From NCBI GenBank assembly GCA_023261485.1, contig JAHFOY010000006.1:1-42801 (forward strand): a stretch of 42,801 bases of DNA. Direction: 5' to 3'. The translations under genes and the position numbers were made by a program. Below are positions 7,515-33,755 of this stretch, one piece after another (position 1 is the stretch's first letter; every line of letters begins with the position of its first letter). The notes under the pieces are model-generated. The model was not told where the DNA came from and ran no database searches. It saw only the letters and a list, made by a program, of their open reading frames with translations. This DNA is from Planctomycetota bacterium (GTDB lineage: Bacteria > Planctomycetota > Brocadiia > Brocadiales > Brocadiaceae).

Positions 7515-8672
7515 ATGATTGATGTAATATTGCTCTCCGTGTGTTCTGTTTCTGCATTTATCTGGCTTGTATTGTTATTCATGCCCGAGCGCTGGCGGAT
7601 GTCGGAACGTTGGGAATCTTCCAAAAATTCACTCACGCCTGTATATCAATTACCAATGTTATCTGTTATTATTCCGGCGCGTAACGAATGTGCCTCTCTC
7701 CCATTAACATTACCATCGTGGCTCGCCCAGGACTATCCTGAATCGGAAGTTATATTGATAGACGATGAATCAACTGACGGCACGGAGGAGTGCGCAAAAA
7801 GTATTGCCGCACGGTCCAATCGTACCATCCGCATTATTAAAGGAACTCGGCCTCCTCCTGGGTGGACTGGCAAGCTATGGGCGCTTCAGCAGGGGATTAA
7901 TGTTTCTTCCGGAGAATGGTTATTATTTACCGATGCCGATATACTCCATTGCCCAAACCTGTGGCACGGGTTGGTGACAAAGGCATTAACCGAACAACGG
8001 GCAATGGTTTCTCTCATGGCGCACCTTGATACTGAAGGGATGTGGGCAAGACTGTTGATACCGGCTTTCATTTACTTCTTTCACTTTATGTATCCATTCG
8101 AGAAGGTAGGGGATTCACGTTCCAAAATATCTGCGGCTGCTGGTGGATGTGTGTTAATTTCCCGTAAAGCCCTTGATGAAATAGGCGGTATAGCAGGACA
8201 CAGTAATGCGTTGATAGATGACCTTGCACTGGCCGGACGCATTAAGCGTGCCGGTCTGCCGCTGTCACTTTCATTGACAAGATCAGCGGTAAGCATTCGT
8301 CCTTATCGTTGGCTTTCTGATGTCTGGAACATGGTTGCGCGCAGTGCGTTTACCCAGTTACGGTGTTCATGGCTGGCTCTGATTGGTACGGTACTGGGGA
8401 TGTTGATTTTATTCGTAGCACCAATGGCAGGTATTTGTGCATTCATTGACCAAACCGTTTCTCCGGCTACACCCATAATTTCATTTGGGGCACTCTTGTT
8501 GATGGCAAGCACGTACATACCCACGATTCGTTTTTTCGGGCTGGGCTTAAGCAAAGCGCTTACACTACCCCTTGCCGGTACGCTTTATATGGCTATGACG
8601 GTATATTCTGCCATTAATCATATTTCAGGTCGACATGTGTGGCGAGGTGCCCGCGGCAGAGCTACTCAGTGA
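7515..8672 (+). CDS. hpnB: Hopene-associated glycosyltransferase HpnB
   Basis: 385 aa GT-A family-2 glycosyltransferase with an N-terminal membrane segment (about 5-23), IIPARNE near residue 55, LIDDESTDG (about 81-89) and a TDADI metal-binding DxD-like motif (about 138-142). HpnB-specific text follows: RPPPGWTGKLWAL, RLLIPAFIYFF, AAAGGCVLISRKAL and LIDDLALAGRIKR. Hydrophobic helices end the protein. HpnB occurs in hopanoid biosynthesis clusters, but its exact substrate is unsettled. No other hpn gene is in the window. Codons about 77-126 exist a second time as a fragment at 12353-12503. Confidence 0.93.
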   Translation: MIDVILLSVCSVSAFIWLVLLFMPERWRMSERWESSKNSLTPVYQLPMLSVIIPARNECASLPLTLPSWLAQDYPESEVILIDDESTDGTEECAKSIAARSNRTIRIIKGTRPPPGWTGKLWALQQGINVSSGEWLLFTDADILHCPNLWHGLVTKALTEQRAMVSLMAHLDTEGMWARLLIPAFIYFFHFMYPFEKVGDSRSKISAAAGGCVLISRKALDEIGGIAGHSNALIDDLALAGRIKRAGLPLSLSLTRSAVSIRPYRWLSDVWNMVARSAFTQLRCSWLALIGTVLGMLILFVAPMAGICAFIDQTVSPATPIISFGALLLMASTYIPTIRFFGLGLSKALTLPLAGTLYMAMTVYSAINHISGRHVWRGARGRATQ

Positions 8673-25713: not shown

Positions 25714-25741
25714 GTAGTGGCAAGGCGCGCCTTGCCACTAC
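25714..25741. repeat. 28-bp perfect palindrome, copy 1
   Basis: A perfect palindrome with 14-bp arms, GTAGTGGCAAGGCG and its complement. An identical copy lies at 26919-26946, so the two copies flank cbiB. No loop. REP-like element. Confidence 0.9.
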
Positions 25742-25891: not shown

Positions 25892-26863
25892 ATGATTAAC
25901 AATGAGAATATGCGGTTTATTGAATTGTCCTTTGCTTTTGTTCTGGACCTGGCCATCGGCGATCCACAATGGTCATACCATCCGGTGCGGCTGATTGGTA
26001 GATCGATAGAAGGTATGGAGTCTCTGCTAAGAAAATTACCCATACCCGTGCGTATAAGCGGGATACTCCTGACCATGACCATTGTTTCTGGGACTTATCT
26101 ATCAATTTATGCGTTGTTGTCATTATCAAAACAGTGGAGTATACTGGGTGAAATAATAATTGGAGCAGTTATTATTTATTTTGCTATTTCTGTAAAAAGT
26201 CTGTCAGATGAATCCAAAAAGGTAATGACAGCTCTGAAGGAACATGATTTAATAAAGGCTCGAAAGGCGTTATCATTGATTGTAGGACGGGACACCGCAA
26301 ACCTCGGTGAAGAGCAGATAGTGCGCGCCTGCATAGAAACCGTTGCGGAGGGGAGTGTGGACGGTGTTTTGTCGCCGTTATTTTATGCCTTTGCCGGAGG
26401 ACCAACTGCTGCAATGGCATATAAGGCCGTGAATACGCTTGATTCCATGGTAGGACACAAAGACGAAAAATATATCCGGTTCGGATGGGCTTCGGCAAGA
26501 TTGGATGACCTAGCCAACTATATCCCGGCCAGAATTTCTGCGATATTAATTCCGATGGCTTCCTTCTTGTGTGGTTATGGTTTCAGGGATTCTTTAAGGA
26601 TTGCCTGTCGTGATGGGCGTAAGCACGATAGTCCCAATAGCGGTATTCCCGAAGCGGCTATAGCAGGTGCATTAGGAATTCAGATAGGGGGGCCAAGTAC
26701 ATATCAAGGCGAGATCGTGGAAAAGCCCTGTATCGGAGACGCCCAAAATCCACTGACTACTAAGTCAATAGAGGCAGCCACTAGGATAATGTACGTTACT
26801 TCCATTTTATTCATTGCCTTTGGAATTGGAGCAATTCTCTGTTTAAAATATTGGTTCTTCTGA
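25892..26863 (+). CDS. cbiB: Adenosylcobinamide-phosphate synthase CbiB/CobD
   Basis: 323 aa integral membrane enzyme that attaches the aminopropanol (or ethanolamine-type) arm to adenosylcobyric acid. Family text is clear: DLAIGDPQWSYHPVRLIG near the N-terminus, VGRDTANLGEEQIVRACIETVAEGSVDGVLSPLFYAF, AYKAVNTLDSMVGHKDEKY, FGWASARLDDLANYIPARISA, and DGRKHDSPNSGIPEAAIAGALGIQIGGPSTYQG. Helices lie at about 55-75, 85-105, 205-225 and the C-terminus. The start is ATG 25892, with no strong Shine-Dalgarno. Identical 28-bp palindromes stand on both sides. Part of a cobalamin/cobalt block with cbiQ, cbiO and cbiA. Confidence 0.96.
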   Translation: MINNENMRFIELSFAFVLDLAIGDPQWSYHPVRLIGRSIEGMESLLRKLPIPVRISGILLTMTIVSGTYLSIYALLSLSKQWSILGEIIIGAVIIYFAISVKSLSDESKKVMTALKEHDLIKARKALSLIVGRDTANLGEEQIVRACIETVAEGSVDGVLSPLFYAFAGGPTAAMAYKAVNTLDSMVGHKDEKYIRFGWASARLDDLANYIPARISAILIPMASFLCGYGFRDSLRIACRDGRKHDSPNSGIPEAAIAGALGIQIGGPSTYQGEIVEKPCIGDAQNPLTTKSIEAATRIMYVTSILFIAFGIGAILCLKYWFF

Positions 26864-26918: not shown

Positions 26919-26946
26919 GTAGTGGCAAGGCGCGCCTTGCCACTAC
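26919..26946. repeat. 28-bp perfect palindrome, copy 2
   Basis: Identical to 25714-25741. It lies between cbiB and cbiQ, 62 bases before the preferred cbiQ start. A GTG inside it could open the cbiQ frame upstream but would translate the repeat. Confidence 0.9.
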
Positions 26947-27008: not shown

Positions 27009-27806
27009 ATGAAATTATCTACCAGCTTATTGGAAAAACTCGATCCAAGGACAAAGATCATTTCATTCCTTTCCGTTATTCTCTGCATGATACTGACTCC
27101 AATTACACATATCAGAGAGTTTGGACTGTATTTTTTATTAATATTAGCTATTGGATTTTGCTCAAAGATTACGCCAAGACAGATATTGAAAAAGGTATGC
27201 ATCTTAATTCCTTTTGTCCTCTTTATTGCGATGTTTGTGCCATTTGTAAAGGAAGGGAACGTATGCTGGTCATTGAAAATAAGCAATTGGAAATTTGATA
27301 TTACGTACGAGGGCGTCTGGACGTTTCTTAATATTATCGTCAAGTCTACATTATCTGTATTTCTCCTGGTGATCGCTTCTTCAACAACAACATTTCCTGA
27401 TTTTTTAAAAGGACTGGACATGCTCCGCATACCGCGGCTGCTTGTTATGCTCATGTCGTTTATGTACCGTTATATCTTTGTGCTGATAGACGAGGCAGGG
27501 AGGCTTATGCGCGCCAGGTCTCTTCGTTATTTCGGTTCCGGGTATAAGGAACAATTTCGGGTAATAGGATACATGATTGGGGTATTATTTATCAGGACGT
27601 TTGAGCGCGCCGAGAGAATTTTCAACGCAATGATTATTCGGGGATTTAGCGGAGAGGTAATTAGCGTTAAACGTTTCAGATTTTCTTATATGGATATTTT
27701 ATTCATGGCTGGTATAATCGTATCGTTGGTTTGTATTGTCTCTGGTCTGATTAATAAAATCGAATATATTGGGGTTAGCGGCGCACATCTATGGCAAGGA
27801 TTATAA
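27009..27806 (+). CDS. cbiQ: Cobalt ECF transporter T component CbiQ
   Basis: 265 aa from ATG 27009. The N-terminus STSLLEKLDPRTKIISFLSVI is the CbiQ/EcfT signature. Four or more membrane helices follow, then the coupling helices with ARSLRYFGSG and ERIFNAMIIRGFSGE, equivalent to the Ala-Arg-Gly-type motifs that contact the ATPase. It is the energy-coupling membrane subunit of a cobalt (or nickel) importer. The frame extends upstream to a GTG in the palindrome at 26922, which is unlikely to be used. It overlaps cbiO by 16 bases. The substrate-specific subunit CbiM and CbiN are absent from the neighbourhood. Confidence 0.94.
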   Translation: MKLSTSLLEKLDPRTKIISFLSVILCMILTPITHIREFGLYFLLILAIGFCSKITPRQILKKVCILIPFVLFIAMFVPFVKEGNVCWSLKISNWKFDITYEGVWTFLNIIVKSTLSVFLLVIASSTTTFPDFLKGLDMLRIPRLLVMLMSFMYRYIFVLIDEAGRLMRARSLRYFGSGYKEQFRVIGYMIGVLFIRTFERAERIFNAMIIRGFSGEVISVKRFRFSYMDILFMAGIIVSLVCIVSGLINKIEYIGVSGAHLWQGL

Positions 27807-28579
27807 AAGTATCAAACTTAAATTACCGTTACCCTGATGGAACAACGGGCCTAAAGGACGTTAGTTTCGAAGTCGAAGAAGGGGAGACCATGGTTATTCT
27901 CGGCGCCAATGGAACCGGGAAATCGACGCTGTTTATGAATCTGATGGGCATTCTGGATGGTGACGGACATATAGAGGTTATGGGGTTACTGCTCGACAAA
28001 AAAAATGTGAAGGACGTCAGGCGCGGGATGGGAATGGTATTTCAGAATCCCGACGATCAGTTATTCTGTCCTACAGTTATAGACGATGTTTCCTTCGGGC
28101 CATTAAACCTGGGGCTGGAGGCAGATCAGGTTATTGAGGCGTCGCAAAAGGCATTAACCATGGTTGACTTACAAGGTTATGAATCTCGCACGTCATACCA
28201 TCTGAGCTTTGGCGAGAAGAAAAGGGCAGCTATAGCCACGATATTGTCCATGAATCCAAAGATACTGTTATTGGACGAACCCACCAGTGGATTAGACCCC
28301 AGAAGCATATCAAAATTTATCAATATCCTATACACCTTGAAATCTCAGGGTAAGACGCTCCTGATTGTAACACATGATCTGTTTCTTACCCAGGAGATAG
28401 CAGACCGGGTACTCGTATTTAGTGAAGAGAAAAGGCCGGTTGCTATAGGGAATTACAAAGAAATTTTAAATAACTACGACTTATTACTAAAAAACAATCT
28501 GGTTCATCAACACCGCCATCGTCATGAAACAGTTGTACATGAGCACGAACACCGGCATGGTTACATCCACGAACATTAA
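27791..28579 (+). CDS. cbiO: Cobalt ECF transporter ATPase CbiO with His-rich tail
   Basis: 262 aa ABC ATPase. Walker A GANGTGKST (38-46), Q-loop VFQNPDDQLF, signature LSFGEKKR (in place of LSGGQ-type), Walker B ILLLDEPTSGLDP, and switch His in VTHD. Energises CbiQ. The last about 25 residues are unusual: nearly half are His, in HRHRHE, HEHEHRHG and HEH groups, a probable cytosolic metal-binding or sensing tail. The tail DNA overlaps the start of the next gene. It overlaps cbiQ by 16 bases, so the two are translationally coupled. Confidence 0.96.
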   Translation: MARIIKVSNLNYRYPDGTTGLKDVSFEVEEGETMVILGANGTGKSTLFMNLMGILDGDGHIEVMGLLLDKKNVKDVRRGMGMVFQNPDDQLFCPTVIDDVSFGPLNLGLEADQVIEASQKALTMVDLQGYESRTSYHLSFGEKKRAAIATILSMNPKILLLDEPTSGLDPRSISKFINILYTLKSQGKTLLIVTHDLFLTQEIADRVLVFSEEKRPVAIGNYKEILNNYDLLLKNNLVHQHRHRHETVVHEHEHRHGYIHEH

Positions 28580-29330
28580 TAACAATATAAGTTTTACCGA
28601 CGATATCTGTGCGGATGGGATATGCTGTTTTATGAGTATTCCCAGGAAACAGACCCATTTGGGCATGTGGAAGACTTTCCTGAAGCGGAGAAATGCGTCT
28701 TACGGAGTCAAACTGCTTTACACAAGCACTCAGGCGAAAGACATAGTTTATAATCCTTGCAGATGTTTGGAATTTTATCTGAAGGAGATTGTCTCCGAAG
28801 ATGGTCCAACCCTGAGAGTATTATTACGATGCGGCATATTTACGAAAGGGTGCCGGCCATATACCTGTAAGGGATTTCCCGATAAGACGGATAGTTTTAT
28901 GCATGACGTGCTTGCCCCATGTGTTTATAATGAATATATAGCACATGAAAATTATGTCCAGCTTAAATACTCACACGTCTTCCGTCTTTTTTACGCTATT
29001 AAAGACGATAATAAATTACTCGGAAAGATTTTCCCCGGGTATTCAGCCGAAGATGTTCGGGAAAAATTAAACCAGTGTAAAGACGTTGTGAAGATTAGCG
29101 CCATCTGGAATGAAAAGCCGTCCGAATACTTTTTACTTGAGGTGCCTAAAACAAAATCTGTATTATATACTTCCGATGTCCATCCACAGATAAAGGGTGT
29201 AAAACAAGCATACGATTTGTGGCAAGGACACATTGAAGGCTGGCTTGAAAGGCATTATGGCAGTAAATGGCATGACCATTTGGAAAGTACAATTGAGAGA
29301 GAAAAGGATGCGGTAAAAAGAACAAAATGA
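28557..29330 (+). CDS. Cysteine-rich cytosolic protein (possible YkgJ-like metal cluster)
   Basis: 257 aa from ATG 28557 (ATG 28524 is also possible). No signal peptide or helix is visible. Cysteines cluster in the first 130 residues: DDICADGICCF, NPCRCLEF, LRCGIFTKGCRPYTCKGFPD and LAPCVYN. The spacing CxxxxCC ... CxC ... C(x7)C(x4)C and the ending C+GFP recall the YkgJ/UPF0153 family, which binds iron-sulfur or zinc. The match is partial and by memory only. The start overlaps the His-rich tail of cbiO by 23 bases and the stop overlaps the next ATG (ATGA), so it is tightly bound to the cobalt transporter operon. Role unknown; a metal-handling partner of CbiQO is the natural guess. Confidence 0.7.
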   Translation: MVTSTNINNNISFTDDICADGICCFMSIPRKQTHLGMWKTFLKRRNASYGVKLLYTSTQAKDIVYNPCRCLEFYLKEIVSEDGPTLRVLLRCGIFTKGCRPYTCKGFPDKTDSFMHDVLAPCVYNEYIAHENYVQLKYSHVFRLFYAIKDDNKLLGKIFPGYSAEDVREKLNQCKDVVKISAIWNEKPSEYFLLEVPKTKSVLYTSDVHPQIKGVKQAYDLWQGHIEGWLERHYGSKWHDHLESTIEREKDAVKRTK

Positions 29331-29758
29331 GTAAATGTAATAAAATATTTGCTTGTATTCAAATATTTGTCATTATTTTTTTCATGGTATGCAATGGTGG
29401 GTTAGCGGTAAACCCTGCCATTAAATCTGGCGCATATCCTTGCAAAGATCATCAATGTGGCTGTAAATCCGAGTCTGATTGTAAAACACATTGTTGCTGT
29501 GCACCTAAAGGAAATCAAGACACGTTCCATACCGCTATCGAAAAACGGAACGGTTTCAAAACTTTTATAAGCAGCGTAAACTGCAAATATGGAAATGACC
29601 CGCTTACACCCATAACCTTTACGGCTAAATATATATTGGAGAGCCGGGTACATGCGATAAAGGAGTCATTCCTGTGCTTTCTTTGCAGGGAAGCGCCCTC
29701 AAACATTCCTGATGTAGTAATATTTCCTCCGGAAAAACCACCACGATATTTCATATAA
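29327..29758 (+). CDS. Small secreted cysteine-rich protein
   Basis: 143 aa. A signal helix (IFACIQIFVIIFFMVCNGGLA, about 7-27) is followed by a dense Cys/His block YPCKDHQCGCKSESDCKTHCCC, and later single cysteines in VNCKYG and FLCFLCREAP. I recall similar CGC...CCC segments in uncharacterised secreted planctomycete proteins (low confidence). It is a periplasmic or exported protein likely to bind a thiophilic metal. It overlaps the previous gene by ATGA, so it belongs to the cbiQO operon. Tail rich in Pro and hydrophobic residues. No enzyme motif seen. Confidence 0.7.
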   Translation: MSKCNKIFACIQIFVIIFFMVCNGGLAVNPAIKSGAYPCKDHQCGCKSESDCKTHCCCAPKGNQDTFHTAIEKRNGFKTFISSVNCKYGNDPLTPITFTAKYILESRVHAIKESFLCFLCREAPSNIPDVVIFPPEKPPRYFI

Positions 29759-29919: not shown

Positions 29920-30966
29920 ATGAAAATACTGGTTGCAATTTTTTTGTTTTTCATGTTTATGAACAGCACTGTATACGCCCACGGCGAATGCTGCCTGTCA
30001 AGGTCTCTTACCGAGGCAACAACTTCTGATATGGCCGTTGCAGAGAATCTTGGGCTTTCACTCCAGTATGAATACTCGAACATGAAAACGATACGAGACG
30101 GCAGTAACAGTATAAGCCACAATACTGTGCTGGACAGAGTAACCGAAGAGTGGCCTGAGATGTCGCCGGAGACGAGGAGTTTTTCAATTCCGACAAGAAT
30201 GATTATGCAAAAATATACGTTCCTGGCCGCATACCACCTCACGGAGCGATTCCAGTTCCTGGTCAATATTCCCTATGTTATAAACGATATGTACATGAGG
30301 AAAATAACAAGGAACAATATGGGCATGGATATGAGAATGGACATGAAGATGGATACGGTCGAGGGACCAGGTGACATGACACTGATGGGACTTTATACGC
30401 TCCTCGCCGATGAACCTGCTAATCCAACAAAAAAACTCACTCTGGGTTTGGGCGTAAAAACTCCAACGGGAGAAAACGATGAAGTGTCTGAATCCGGTTC
30501 TCTGGTTCATGCCATGATGCAGCCAGGCACAGGTTCGTGGGATCCCTTATTTTTGGTCAATTATATGCGGTCATTTTATCCTCTGGTATTACAGGCCAAT
30601 CTCCTTTACCATATGACGACAGAAGGGGATCAAGGTTATGAATTTGGAGATAAGGTGTCTTTGGATATTATTGCCAGATACCGGGTCGCCAGTTATTTGA
30701 ATCCCGGCTTGGAATTGAACGGATTGTATGCAGGAGAGGACACCGACCACGACGGCAAATACTCAAGACCCGATACATCCCTCCTGGATAACACAGACAA
30801 TACCGGCATTACATCCCTTTCTGTTACTCCAACTGTCCGGGTAAATATTCCCAAAACCGGCGGCAGTGTTGATTTAAAGTTCCAAAAGCCAATTTATCAA
30901 AACGCCAACGGTACGCAGCAAGTAGTGGACTGGAGGGCGATGGCATCGGTTGTGTGGGCTTTTTAG
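29920..30966 (+). CDS. Outer-membrane beta-barrel channel, paralog 1
   Basis: 348 aa. Signal peptide KILVAIFLFFMFMNSTVYA, with the mature protein predicted to begin HGECCLSRS, a potential metal ligand cluster. The rest is alternating strands ending in VVWAF (C-terminal Phe). A Met/Asp-rich loop MGMDMRMDMKMD lies at about 133-145. It shares with the gene at 31280 the blocks KTPTGEND, QPGTGSWDPLF, and LLYHMTTEGDQGYEFGD. It resembles the MetA-pathway/phenol-degradation-type (Phenol_MetA_deg) outer-membrane proteins. In this setting a channel for cobalt or a cobalt chelate is possible, but unproven. AAGGAG precedes the ATG. Confidence 0.8.
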   Translation: MKILVAIFLFFMFMNSTVYAHGECCLSRSLTEATTSDMAVAENLGLSLQYEYSNMKTIRDGSNSISHNTVLDRVTEEWPEMSPETRSFSIPTRMIMQKYTFLAAYHLTERFQFLVNIPYVINDMYMRKITRNNMGMDMRMDMKMDTVEGPGDMTLMGLYTLLADEPANPTKKLTLGLGVKTPTGENDEVSESGSLVHAMMQPGTGSWDPLFLVNYMRSFYPLVLQANLLYHMTTEGDQGYEFGDKVSLDIIARYRVASYLNPGLELNGLYAGEDTDHDGKYSRPDTSLLDNTDNTGITSLSVTPTVRVNIPKTGGSVDLKFQKPIYQNANGTQQVVDWRAMASVVWAF

Positions 30967-31279: not shown

Positions 31280-32260
31280 ATGAAAACCACTGTAATAAAA
31301 TACCGTTATATAATTATTTTCATAATCTGGATGATTGCGACAGTATGTAAAAACAATGCTTATGCCTGTGATTTGTGTTCTCTCGGCGGATTCGGCGGGA
31401 CTACGGGCGCCGTCAATCCGATTTCTGCGGAGTCGCCTAAGAAAAACAAATACACCCTGGGATATATATTGGAGTATCAGGATTGGCAATCCGTCAACAT
31501 AAGGAAAGCACATGAATTGCACGAAGAAGGCCGGGATGCACATGCCCGGAAGAATGATATTTCGAATAGCGTTTTTTTTGGCTATGGGATTACTGATGCG
31601 CTTTCCGTCAGTCTGCAGGTACCCTATGTAGAAAGACGCTTTAAGGAAGTACATGAAGAAGAATTTTTAGGTGATAGCGAAAAAGCTACGGGTCTTGGAG
31701 ACTCAATTCTGCTTGGAAAGTACAAATTTTATGACAAACAATTTGGGCTGGCCGGGATATTTGGTTTGAAATTGCCTACAGGAACTACAGACGAAAGGAA
31801 TAAGACCGGAGAAAAATATGAGCCGGAATTACAGCCAGGTGCGGGGTCTCTGGATTATCTATTTGGTATCTCAGCCAACAAAAAAATCAATCATTTGATT
31901 GTAGTGGACGGTACGGTGTTATACCATCTTAAGACAGAAGGCGATCAGAATTATGAATTTGGCGATATCGTTAGAGTGACCACCGGTGCGACCTTTAATG
32001 TCATTGATGGGAATAAAAAACCTACACTTAATTTCTTATCGGAAGTTATTTCACAATTTGCCAATAAAGATGTACAAGACGGAGAGACGATTCGTGATTC
32101 CGGCGGCACGACCATCTTTTTTGCACCCGGCGTTTCCTCTTACCTTACAGAGCAGTTAAAAACAACGCTATCCGTTCCAGTGCCTGCGTATCAAGGATTA
32201 GGGGGAGAACATCAGGAACTGGATTTCAACGTTCTTTTCAGCATGAGTTACAGTTTCTAA
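31280..32260 (+). CDS. Outer-membrane beta-barrel channel, paralog 2
   Basis: 326 aa. A basic start and signal helix (YIIIFIIWMIATVCKNNAYA) lead to a predicted mature N-terminus CDLCSLGGFGG, a CxxC motif at the very start. Barrel strands follow and end in FSMSYSF. It shares KLPTGTTDE, QPGAGSLDYLFG, and VLYHLKTEGDQNYEFGD with the gene at 29920, so the two are paralogs of one barrel family. A His-containing segment KAHELHEEGRDAHARK (about 72-87) adds further possible ligands. The start has GGAGGAGG close upstream. Together with paralog 1 it forms an outer-membrane pair between the cobalt importer genes and cbiA. Confidence 0.8.
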   Translation: MKTTVIKYRYIIIFIIWMIATVCKNNAYACDLCSLGGFGGTTGAVNPISAESPKKNKYTLGYILEYQDWQSVNIRKAHELHEEGRDAHARKNDISNSVFFGYGITDALSVSLQVPYVERRFKEVHEEEFLGDSEKATGLGDSILLGKYKFYDKQFGLAGIFGLKLPTGTTDERNKTGEKYEPELQPGAGSLDYLFGISANKKINHLIVVDGTVLYHLKTEGDQNYEFGDIVRVTTGATFNVIDGNKKPTLNFLSEVISQFANKDVQDGETIRDSGGTTIFFAPGVSSYLTEQLKTTLSVPVPAYQGLGGEHQELDFNVLFSMSYSF

Positions 32261-32363: not shown

Positions 32364-33755
32364 ATGCATCATACTTCACATAAATATCCCAGGATATTAA
32401 TAGCAGGCACGCACAGCGGTGTGGGTAAAACAACCGTTACCCTCGGCCTGATGTCTGTATTGAAAGAAAAGGGTTACAAAGTGCAGGGGTTTAAGGCAGG
32501 ACCTGATTATATTGACCCCTCACATCACACGGCAATTACCCAAAAACCTTCGCGTAATCTCGATACGTGGCTCATGAGCCAGGATGTGTGCCTGGAATTG
32601 TTCGAGCATGCCCTGGCAGATTCAGATATGGCGGTTATCGAGGGAGTAATGGGACTCTATGACGGCTGCCTGGACGGGAGCGAACTGGGAAGTACGGCAC
32701 ACCTTGCCAAGATATTGAATGTGCCTGCGATATTGGTAATGGATTCCAAGGGAATGTCGCGCAGCGCAGGCGCAGTTGTATTGGGATATAAATATTTTGA
32801 TAGAGACGTAAAAATTCAAGGGATAATTCTTAACAGAGTTAAGAGCGAGCGGCATTATCGTTCTCTGAAAGCATCTATAGAAGGAAATTGCGGCATTCCT
32901 GTTTTAGGGTATTTGCCTTTCAATGATGATATAATACTCCCGGAGCGTCACCTGGGTTTAGTGCCGTCAGTAGAGCAGGAATTTTCAAAGTCTACATATC
33001 AAAAGATCGGTGATTTGCTGGCAACTACTGTGGATATAGATAAATTTATTGATATTGCATCGTCATCCGGCGGTATTCCCTCATATAAAAAGACGGTATT
33101 TAGCGGGATAAATGAAAGGTTTTATTTCAGAATTGCCGTCGCTGTGGACGAGGCATTTAATTTTTATTATCAGGACAACCTTGACCTGCTGGAATTGTAT
33201 GGTGTAGAGCTTACTTATTTTAGTCCATTGTATGATAAGTATCTGCCAGCGGATATCGATGGATTATACATTGGCGGGGGTTTTCCTGAACTATATGCTA
33301 ACCTGCTTGCTTCAAACACCACAATGAAGGAGTCCATACGTAAAGCGCACAAAAAAGGTGTGGTCATATACGGCGAATGCGGGGGGATGATGTACCTGCT
33401 TGAACAAATGGCAGACTTTAAAAAGAAGACGCATGAAATGTGCGGAATACTCAAGGGAACTACCATTATGGAAAATAAAAGGCAGGGGCTTGGATACATT
33501 ACAGTTCAAGCGCTGCACGATAACATCTTATGCAAAAAAGGGGAGATGTTCAAAGGCCATGAATTTCACTGGTCATCACTGCATGTTCCTGAAGGTACGC
33601 CGTATGCTTATGCGATTTCCAAATGTGATGACAAGAAATCAAAAATGGACGGCGTCTTTACAGACCATGTATTAGGTTCCTACACTCATGTCCATTTTGC
33701 AACTGACCCCAGGTTGTTAAAACATTTTTTGTATACTATTGCAAAAAGGGCTTAA
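32364..33755 (+). CDS. cbiA: Cobyrinate a,c-diamide synthase
   Basis: 463 aa. The N-terminal ATP-binding domain has GTHSGVGKTT (15-24), GFKAGPDYIDP and VIEGVMGLYDG. The C-terminal glutamine amidotransferase domain has GGGFPELYANLLA, the nucleophile Cys in YGECGGMMYL (about residue 339) and the terminal THVHF histidine block. It amidates the a and c side chains of cobyrinic acid (or hydrogenobyrinate), an early committed step of corrin maturation. It has its own promoter, so it can be expressed apart from cbiB/cbiQO. No other corrin-ring gene is in the window. Confidence 0.95.
   Translation: MHHTSHKYPRILIAGTHSGVGKTTVTLGLMSVLKEKGYKVQGFKAGPDYIDPSHHTAITQKPSRNLDTWLMSQDVCLELFEHALADSDMAVIEGVMGLYDGCLDGSELGSTAHLAKILNVPAILVMDSKGMSRSAGAVVLGYKYFDRDVKIQGIILNRVKSERHYRSLKASIEGNCGIPVLGYLPFNDDIILPERHLGLVPSVEQEFSKSTYQKIGDLLATTVDIDKFIDIASSSGGIPSYKKTVFSGINERFYFRIAVAVDEAFNFYYQDNLDLLELYGVELTYFSPLYDKYLPADIDGLYIGGGFPELYANLLASNTTMKESIRKAHKKGVVIYGECGGMMYLLEQMADFKKKTHEMCGILKGTTIMENKRQGLGYITVQALHDNILCKKGEMFKGHEFHWSSLHVPEGTPYAYAISKCDDKKSKMDGVFTDHVLGSYTHVHFATDPRLLKHFLYTIAKRA

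Follow-up and report, generated by a model that had tools for sequence, protein, structure and literature searches.

We consider it highly probable that the cbiQ and cbiO genes described here encode the T and A components of a dispersed group I ECF importer for cobalt (or nickel), and that the gene for its S component, cbiM, was most likely left unassembled. The absence of cbiM beside cbiQO is true, and its absence from the organism is not established by a draft genome that is 84% complete. The missing gene is likely to result from an assembly gap and not from replacement; there is no need to assume a replacement protein, because the closest relative carries cbiM approximately 36 kb from cbiQ, on a segment absent from the present assembly.

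The window, i.e., the whole stretch of DNA that was analyzed (42,801 nucleotides; G000:C124:1–42801), is part of a 62,368-nt contig in the draft genome of the source organism (G000; 217 contigs). The family set comprised 33 genomes (G000–G032), including the source genome itself. Among 34 named loci carrying a related cbiQ, the first 25 belonged to Brocadiaceae, Brocadia, Jettenia, Kuenenia, Loosdrechtia, or unnamed Planctomycetes, and the remaining nine to distant Actinomycetota and Firmicutes, with 19–20% identity. Brocadia, Jettenia, Kuenenia, and Loosdrechtia are anammox bacteria. Several contigs of the family break off within cbiQ or cbiO or immediately behind them, and the neighborhoods are seen only to the contig ends. 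The features of the window are as follows.

2–841, + strand: lipA, truncated by the left contig end (open frame 2–841, used as the BLAST target; ORF 182–841)
25718–25737, no strand: 20-bp perfect palindrome, copy 1, upstream of cbiB
25892–26863, + strand: cbiB, adenosylcobinamide-phosphate synthase (PF03186, 344 bits; TIGR00380, 255.4 bits, cut-off 165.9)
26923–26942, no strand: 20-bp palindrome, copy 2, between cbiB and cbiQ
27009–27806, + strand: cbiQ, ECF T component (TIGR02454, 150.4 bits, cut-off 111.8; PF02361, 125.7 bits, cut-off 25)
27791–28579, + strand: cbiO, ECF ATPase (PF00005, 99.5 bits, above the cut-off; TIGR01166, 208.2 bits, just below the cut-off of 211.8)
28524–29330, + strand: YK268, Cys-rich, with no hydrophobic span and no Pfam family (ORF counted from the first ATG)
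29327–29758, + strand: S143, with one N-terminal hydrophobic span (a probable signal) and a conserved Cys-rich motif
29920–30966, + strand: OMP1, probable outer-membrane barrel, assigned with no Pfam match
31280–32260, + strand: OMP2, outer-membrane barrel (PF13557, 32.7 bits, cut-off 22)
32364–33755, + strand: cobB/cbiA, cobyrinate a,c-diamide synthase (profile matches)

The order in this part of the window is cbiB, cbiQ, cbiO, YK268, S143, two putative barrels, and cobB, and cbiQ overlaps cbiO by 16 nt. As the preliminary description had stated, cbiQ and cbiO lie together with neither cbiM nor CbiN beside them: the profile matches fell at 27009–27806 and 27791–28579, and PF01891 (CbiM) and PF02553 (CbiN) gave none. 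The source genome has one copy of CbiQ, in which both coupling motifs are intact (RARS in LMRARSLRYF and IRG in AMIIRGFSG). CbiO contains GANGTGKST, LSFGEKK, and ILLLDEPT, which we take to be its nucleotide-binding motifs, and its C-terminus is a His-rich tail (about 28500–28576); a similar tail occurs in the relatives whose sequences were printed and in the outgroup genome G034. S143 has a conserved Cys motif (HxCGCxS...CxxxCCC) and a PPEKPPR-like end, occurs in two copies in some relatives, and belongs to no Pfam family; it may be an exported metal binder. When the alignment members of YK268 (16) and S143 (14) were compared with Pfam, only weak, scattered matches were obtained (best E = 0.0041), and the predicted fold of YK268 was unusable (mean pLDDT 52.3). 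The palindrome, TGGCAAGGCGCGCCTTGCCA, occurs twice in the window, flanking cbiB, as against no occurrence in 100 shuffles; it was found in three of the 192 loci scanned, all from the source genome, two of which are stretches of the window itself.

The preliminary description had proposed a genome-wide search for cbiM, in which a negative outcome was to support replacement by a protein of the locus. The search did return nothing: the PF01891 profile had no match in the whole source genome (the identical search was positive in 44 of 59 genomes), a search with the nearest relative's CbiM protein, run without its own positive control, gave no match at E ≤ 10, and PF02553 had no match either. The conclusion attached to it does not follow, because the assembly is incomplete just where cbiM is expected, so that a cbiM-free genome is misleading as a test of replacement.

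In the relatives, the S component is indeed encoded elsewhere, as the same description had allowed. A separate CbiM of 211–214 aa was found in all six congeners searched (E = 1.6e-67 to 3.2e-66). This one CbiM type is present in 18 of the 33 family genomes, these six included, where it lies at least 24 kb from any CbiQ match or on another contig, and it shares at least 78% identity with the G003 protein across the portion available. In all 33 genomes, cbiB has cbiQ behind it, and no CbiM match was found beside cbiB–cbiQ in any of them, as far as the contigs reach. The subunits are thus not gathered into one operon at the cbiQO of the window family; a single operon for all group I ECF subunits is usual, and not strictly defining.

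The closest relative, G004, holds the window gene order and cbiM together on one contig (C35). This contig contains cobB, the barrels, S143, YK268, cbiO, cbiQ, cbiB, dnaK, and grpE, and follows the window order to lipA. Beyond lipA come lipB, the pyruvate dehydrogenase E2, E1-beta, and E1-alpha genes, a methyltransferase (SAM_MT), and an epimerase, followed by an M50-like protein, MGMT, cbiM, and an archaemetzincin-like gene (Amz), several of these gene names being a reading of the sequence. The cbiM gene, at 58794–59438, lies 14.4 kb beyond lipA, at a distance of 35.9 kb from cbiQ. The cbiQ of G004 is split over two frames, by either a frameshift or an assembly error. In G009, too, a cbiM–PDGLE pair and cbiQO share one contig, 24 kb apart.

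The window contig breaks inside lipA, approximately 14 kb before the expected cbiM site. When the cbiM contig of G003 (11.8 kb) was compared with the source genome, only scattered matches of ≤ 157 nt were obtained (40 of 60 first-look candidates scored), and only short scattered matches came from the opening 3 kb of the G001 contig (40 of 57 scored). For the G003 pyruvate dehydrogenase E1-beta protein, only paralogues at 26–32% identity were detected (10 of 10 candidates scored). Because both the cbiM segment and the pyruvate dehydrogenase genes were not found in the source assembly, we interpret their absence as an assembly gap: the assembly seems to be missing a block of household genes beyond lipA, and, judging from its relatives, the source genome would have cbiM in this gap. 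A co-regulated cbiM elsewhere, the finding that the preliminary description had set against replacement, was not recovered as such: no Rfam family, and hence no riboswitch, reached its gathering score in the window, and an Rfam scan of 14 cbiM loci of this type (13 genomes) detected no cobalamin riboswitch, the hits there being three tRNAs and one c-di-GMP-I riboswitch.

The pairing of this CbiM with CbiQO was also examined in an outgroup. In G034, which belongs to the same order, cbiQ (48% identical), cbiO (62%), and a cbiM that is 64% identical to the separate type and truncated by the contig end are adjacent, whereas the other CbiMs in the loci compared are 29–38% identical to the separate type. 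Since orthologous cbiQ, cbiO, and cbiM are adjacent in the outgroup, we regard the separate CbiM as the cognate subunit. The G034 cluster also appears to include a NikR-like gene, judging by a reading of its sequence.

A CbiN-like partner, PDGLE (PF13190), is encoded in the source genome at C136:5269–5586 and represents there the small two-span partner (CbiN or PDGLE/NikN-like) of such systems. PDGLE was present in 10 of the 13 genomes asked, i.e., in all seven of the genus, the source included, in all three of group g6 (Jettenia-type), and in none of three cbiO-less genomes (G015, G016, and G026); PF02553 CbiN was absent from all seven genomes of the genus. In several other genera, PDGLE directly follows CbiM, whereas in the window genus it is located away from CbiM in the genomes whose neighborhood was inspected; a single cluster has thus come apart. 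The PDGLE gene on C136 adjoins a gene for a 315-aa methyltransferase-like protein, and the G009 relative of the latter lies close to cbiM–PDGLE.

In the system that we propose, CbiM would be encoded at a second site, next to the archaemetzincin-like gene and near the pyruvate dehydrogenase genes, a stretch that in the source organism most likely lies just past the left contig end; PDGLE is encoded at a third site, on C136. CbiM and PDGLE would bind the metal, and CbiQ would hold CbiM and use its two Arg motifs for coupling to a pair of CbiO ATPases, so that the dispersed subunits presumably form one complex. The imported metal would then enter corrin synthesis (cbiB and cobB flank cbiQO), and the barrels together with S143 could carry it across the outer membrane and periplasm. 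Cobalt is the putative substrate because cbiB and cobB lie beside cbiQO, and nickel is a possible one in view of the NikR-like gene in the outgroup cluster.

An improbable alternative is that the source organism truly lost cbiM and that its cbiQO is a decaying relic. Its assembly shows no cbiM, and such loss does occur in the family. In nine genomes (G014–G017, G020, G021, G023, G026, and G029), cbiO is absent or a remnant, and the separate-type cbiM is gone from all nine as well (from G023 only when a contig regarded as foreign is excluded). The three g6 genomes (G011, G018, and G022) retain cbiQ with a full or frameshifted cbiO (that of G018 is split over two frames) and lack this CbiM. Beside the archaemetzincin-like gene, codons 1–12 of cbiM (MHIPDGFLDTKT, allowing three differences at most) form the beginning of their PDGLE frame, giving in-frame cbiM–PDGLE fusions at 8037–8462 of L189, 8170–8541 of L190, and 8126–8575 of L191; this 12-codon stub fused to PDGLE is a deletion scar common to the three genomes. 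In G013 (85% complete), cbiQ and cbiO were present and this CbiM was not found. These four genomes, the two-frame cbiQ of G004, and the failure to find shared regulation count against the dispersed system that we propose. Against loss in the source organism, however, all six congeners searched retain cbiM, and its cbiQ is as constrained as theirs (omega 0.09–0.17 against four congeners, in all three regions). Furthermore, the entire cbiM neighborhood was not found in the assembly, which the loss of a single gene would not cause.

We also scored the co-occurrence of the separate cbiM and cbiO in 27 genomes: 15 had both, nine had neither, three (the g6 genomes) had cbiO only, and none had cbiM only. 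This score omits the source genome and G013, and two genomes (G001 and G030) have no cbiO score because their contigs end; G018 and G031 were counted as cbiO-positive despite a cbiO in two frames. G023 was counted as lacking cbiM and set aside as an exception, because its 4,050-nt cbiM contig (C116, L180) is 100% identical to a contig of G001 (C125, L113), a member of another genus, and was taken as mis-binned; a foreign contig is probably present in one of these bins. On a tree obtained by a quick search, from which G007 and G028 were dropped because they had too few columns (each has both cbiM and cbiO), cbiM changes five times and cbiO four times, and among independent pairs the count is 4 to 0 in favor of agreement (p = 0.125 in a sign test; 3.5 to 0 with p = 0.125 when G023 is scored as having cbiM). 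The events are too few for co-loss to reach p = 0.05.

It is very improbable that CbiQO relies on an S component from a different ECF system in the cell. Many relatives have further CbiM–CbiQ systems, and the CbiMs of such systems are the only ones in the g6 genomes, which do have cbiQO. However, the source genome, G003, and G006 show one CbiQ only, and G003 and G006 show the separate CbiM only, although these genomes are incomplete (84, 86, and 58%, respectively). The least probable explanation is the replacement suggested in the preliminary description, with YK268, S143, or a barrel as the S component: these genes do accompany cbiQO in most of the family and the Cys-rich motif of S143 could bind metal, but S components cross the membrane several times, a single hydrophobic span is the most seen in any unassigned ORF of the locus (YK268 none, S143 and the barrels one N-terminal span each, compared with four in the separate CbiM and five in CbiQ, in a crude hydropathy scan that found only three in CbiB), YK268 is retained in eight of the nine genomes without a working cbiO, and the segment where cbiM is expected was not found in the assembly.

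We next turn to the CbiQ of the relatives, since cbiQ persists behind cbiB in all nine cbiO-less genomes. The coupling motifs of these orphan CbiQs are destroyed in seven genomes and intact in G017. The coupling region is deleted in frame in G029 and G030, the contig of the latter ending soon after cbiQ. Beside all nine altered CbiQ loci (L120, L134, L109, L133, L130, L132, L121, L135, and L131), cbiO is missing, except at L131, where the contig ends. The orphans keep their membrane helices, and most keep a C-terminal tail containing H-x-W. For the first membrane part, omega was 0.20–0.51 for orphan pairs within a genus and 0.08–0.33 for intact pairs, suggesting that the constraint is relaxed but present. 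The coupling region of the orphans evolved more rapidly than the membrane part (the ratio of dN values was about 1.1 to 3.2 across the seven full-length pairs), with an omega in full-length pairs of 0.28–0.58, still below 1; in intact CbiQ genes, it was usually not faster. In a neutral simulation with assumed distances, 0 to 4 of 1,000 copies were stop-free for four orphan genes, and 99 of 1,000 for the G029 gene, which is short and was simulated at a smaller distance. We take the retention of the orphan CbiQ as real. The fold of one orphan (Ca. Brocadia pituitae) was predicted from an alignment that also included intact CbiQs, and confidence was low for the coupling region; the 11 top PDB matches were chains of ECF transporter entries, seven of them at E ≤ 0.001, and these are presumably T chains, in keeping with a predicted EcfT fold.

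We tentatively raise the possibility that in at least three anammox lineages CbiQ outlived the transporter, perhaps with a new job and without the ATPase. In such a role, it may be a membrane scaffold for late membrane-bound cobamide synthesis, or alternatively it may serve the remaining Ni/Co systems as a passive partner. If true, this would be an ECF T component working without an ATPase. Among the open papers searched, none addressed in its title or opening abstract lines an anammox CbiQ that is split or orphaned. The family offers a natural series, i.e., the intact split system, the cbiM deletion scar, the broken cbiO, and CbiQ without an ATPase, that makes a function of the T component on its own testable, and in the host bacteria the metal supply matters for nitrogen removal. 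The orphan CbiQ of the relatives is the part worth following, and the missing cbiM most likely has an ordinary cause: the case shows that a gap in a draft genome combined with a dispersed gene set can produce a “missing subunit,” and the place to look for the gene can be named.

Among known systems, a 2009 survey lists no ECF Ni/Co system in the three Planctomycetes examined there (PMC2667541). One of the closest counterparts of the window system is CbiMNQO (Salmonella; CbiMQO structure 5X3X). For cobalt transport, CbiM and CbiN are described as the minimal proteins, and the complex has one CbiQ and two CbiO (PMC7689651). The window proteins belong to the same T and A families, with both coupling motifs in CbiQ, the congeners' CbiM belongs to PF01891, and cbiQO is flanked by cobalamin genes. 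Unlike in CbiMNQO, the genes of the genus are spread over three places, PDGLE is found instead of PF02553 CbiN in all seven genomes, and the window CbiO has a His-rich tail. The nickel ECF systems (NikM, a small NikN/PDGLE partner, and NikQO) are matched by the position of PDGLE right after CbiM in several genera and by the apparent NikR-like gene beside the outgroup cluster, whereas the window cbiQO sits among cobalamin genes. As in BioN, the T unit of the biotin transporter BioMNY, whose ARS and ARG motifs contact the ATPase (PMC3246461), both coupling motifs of this type are present in the window CbiQ; the substrate and the S component differ from those of BioMNY, and nine relatives of the window have a CbiQ without intact motifs.
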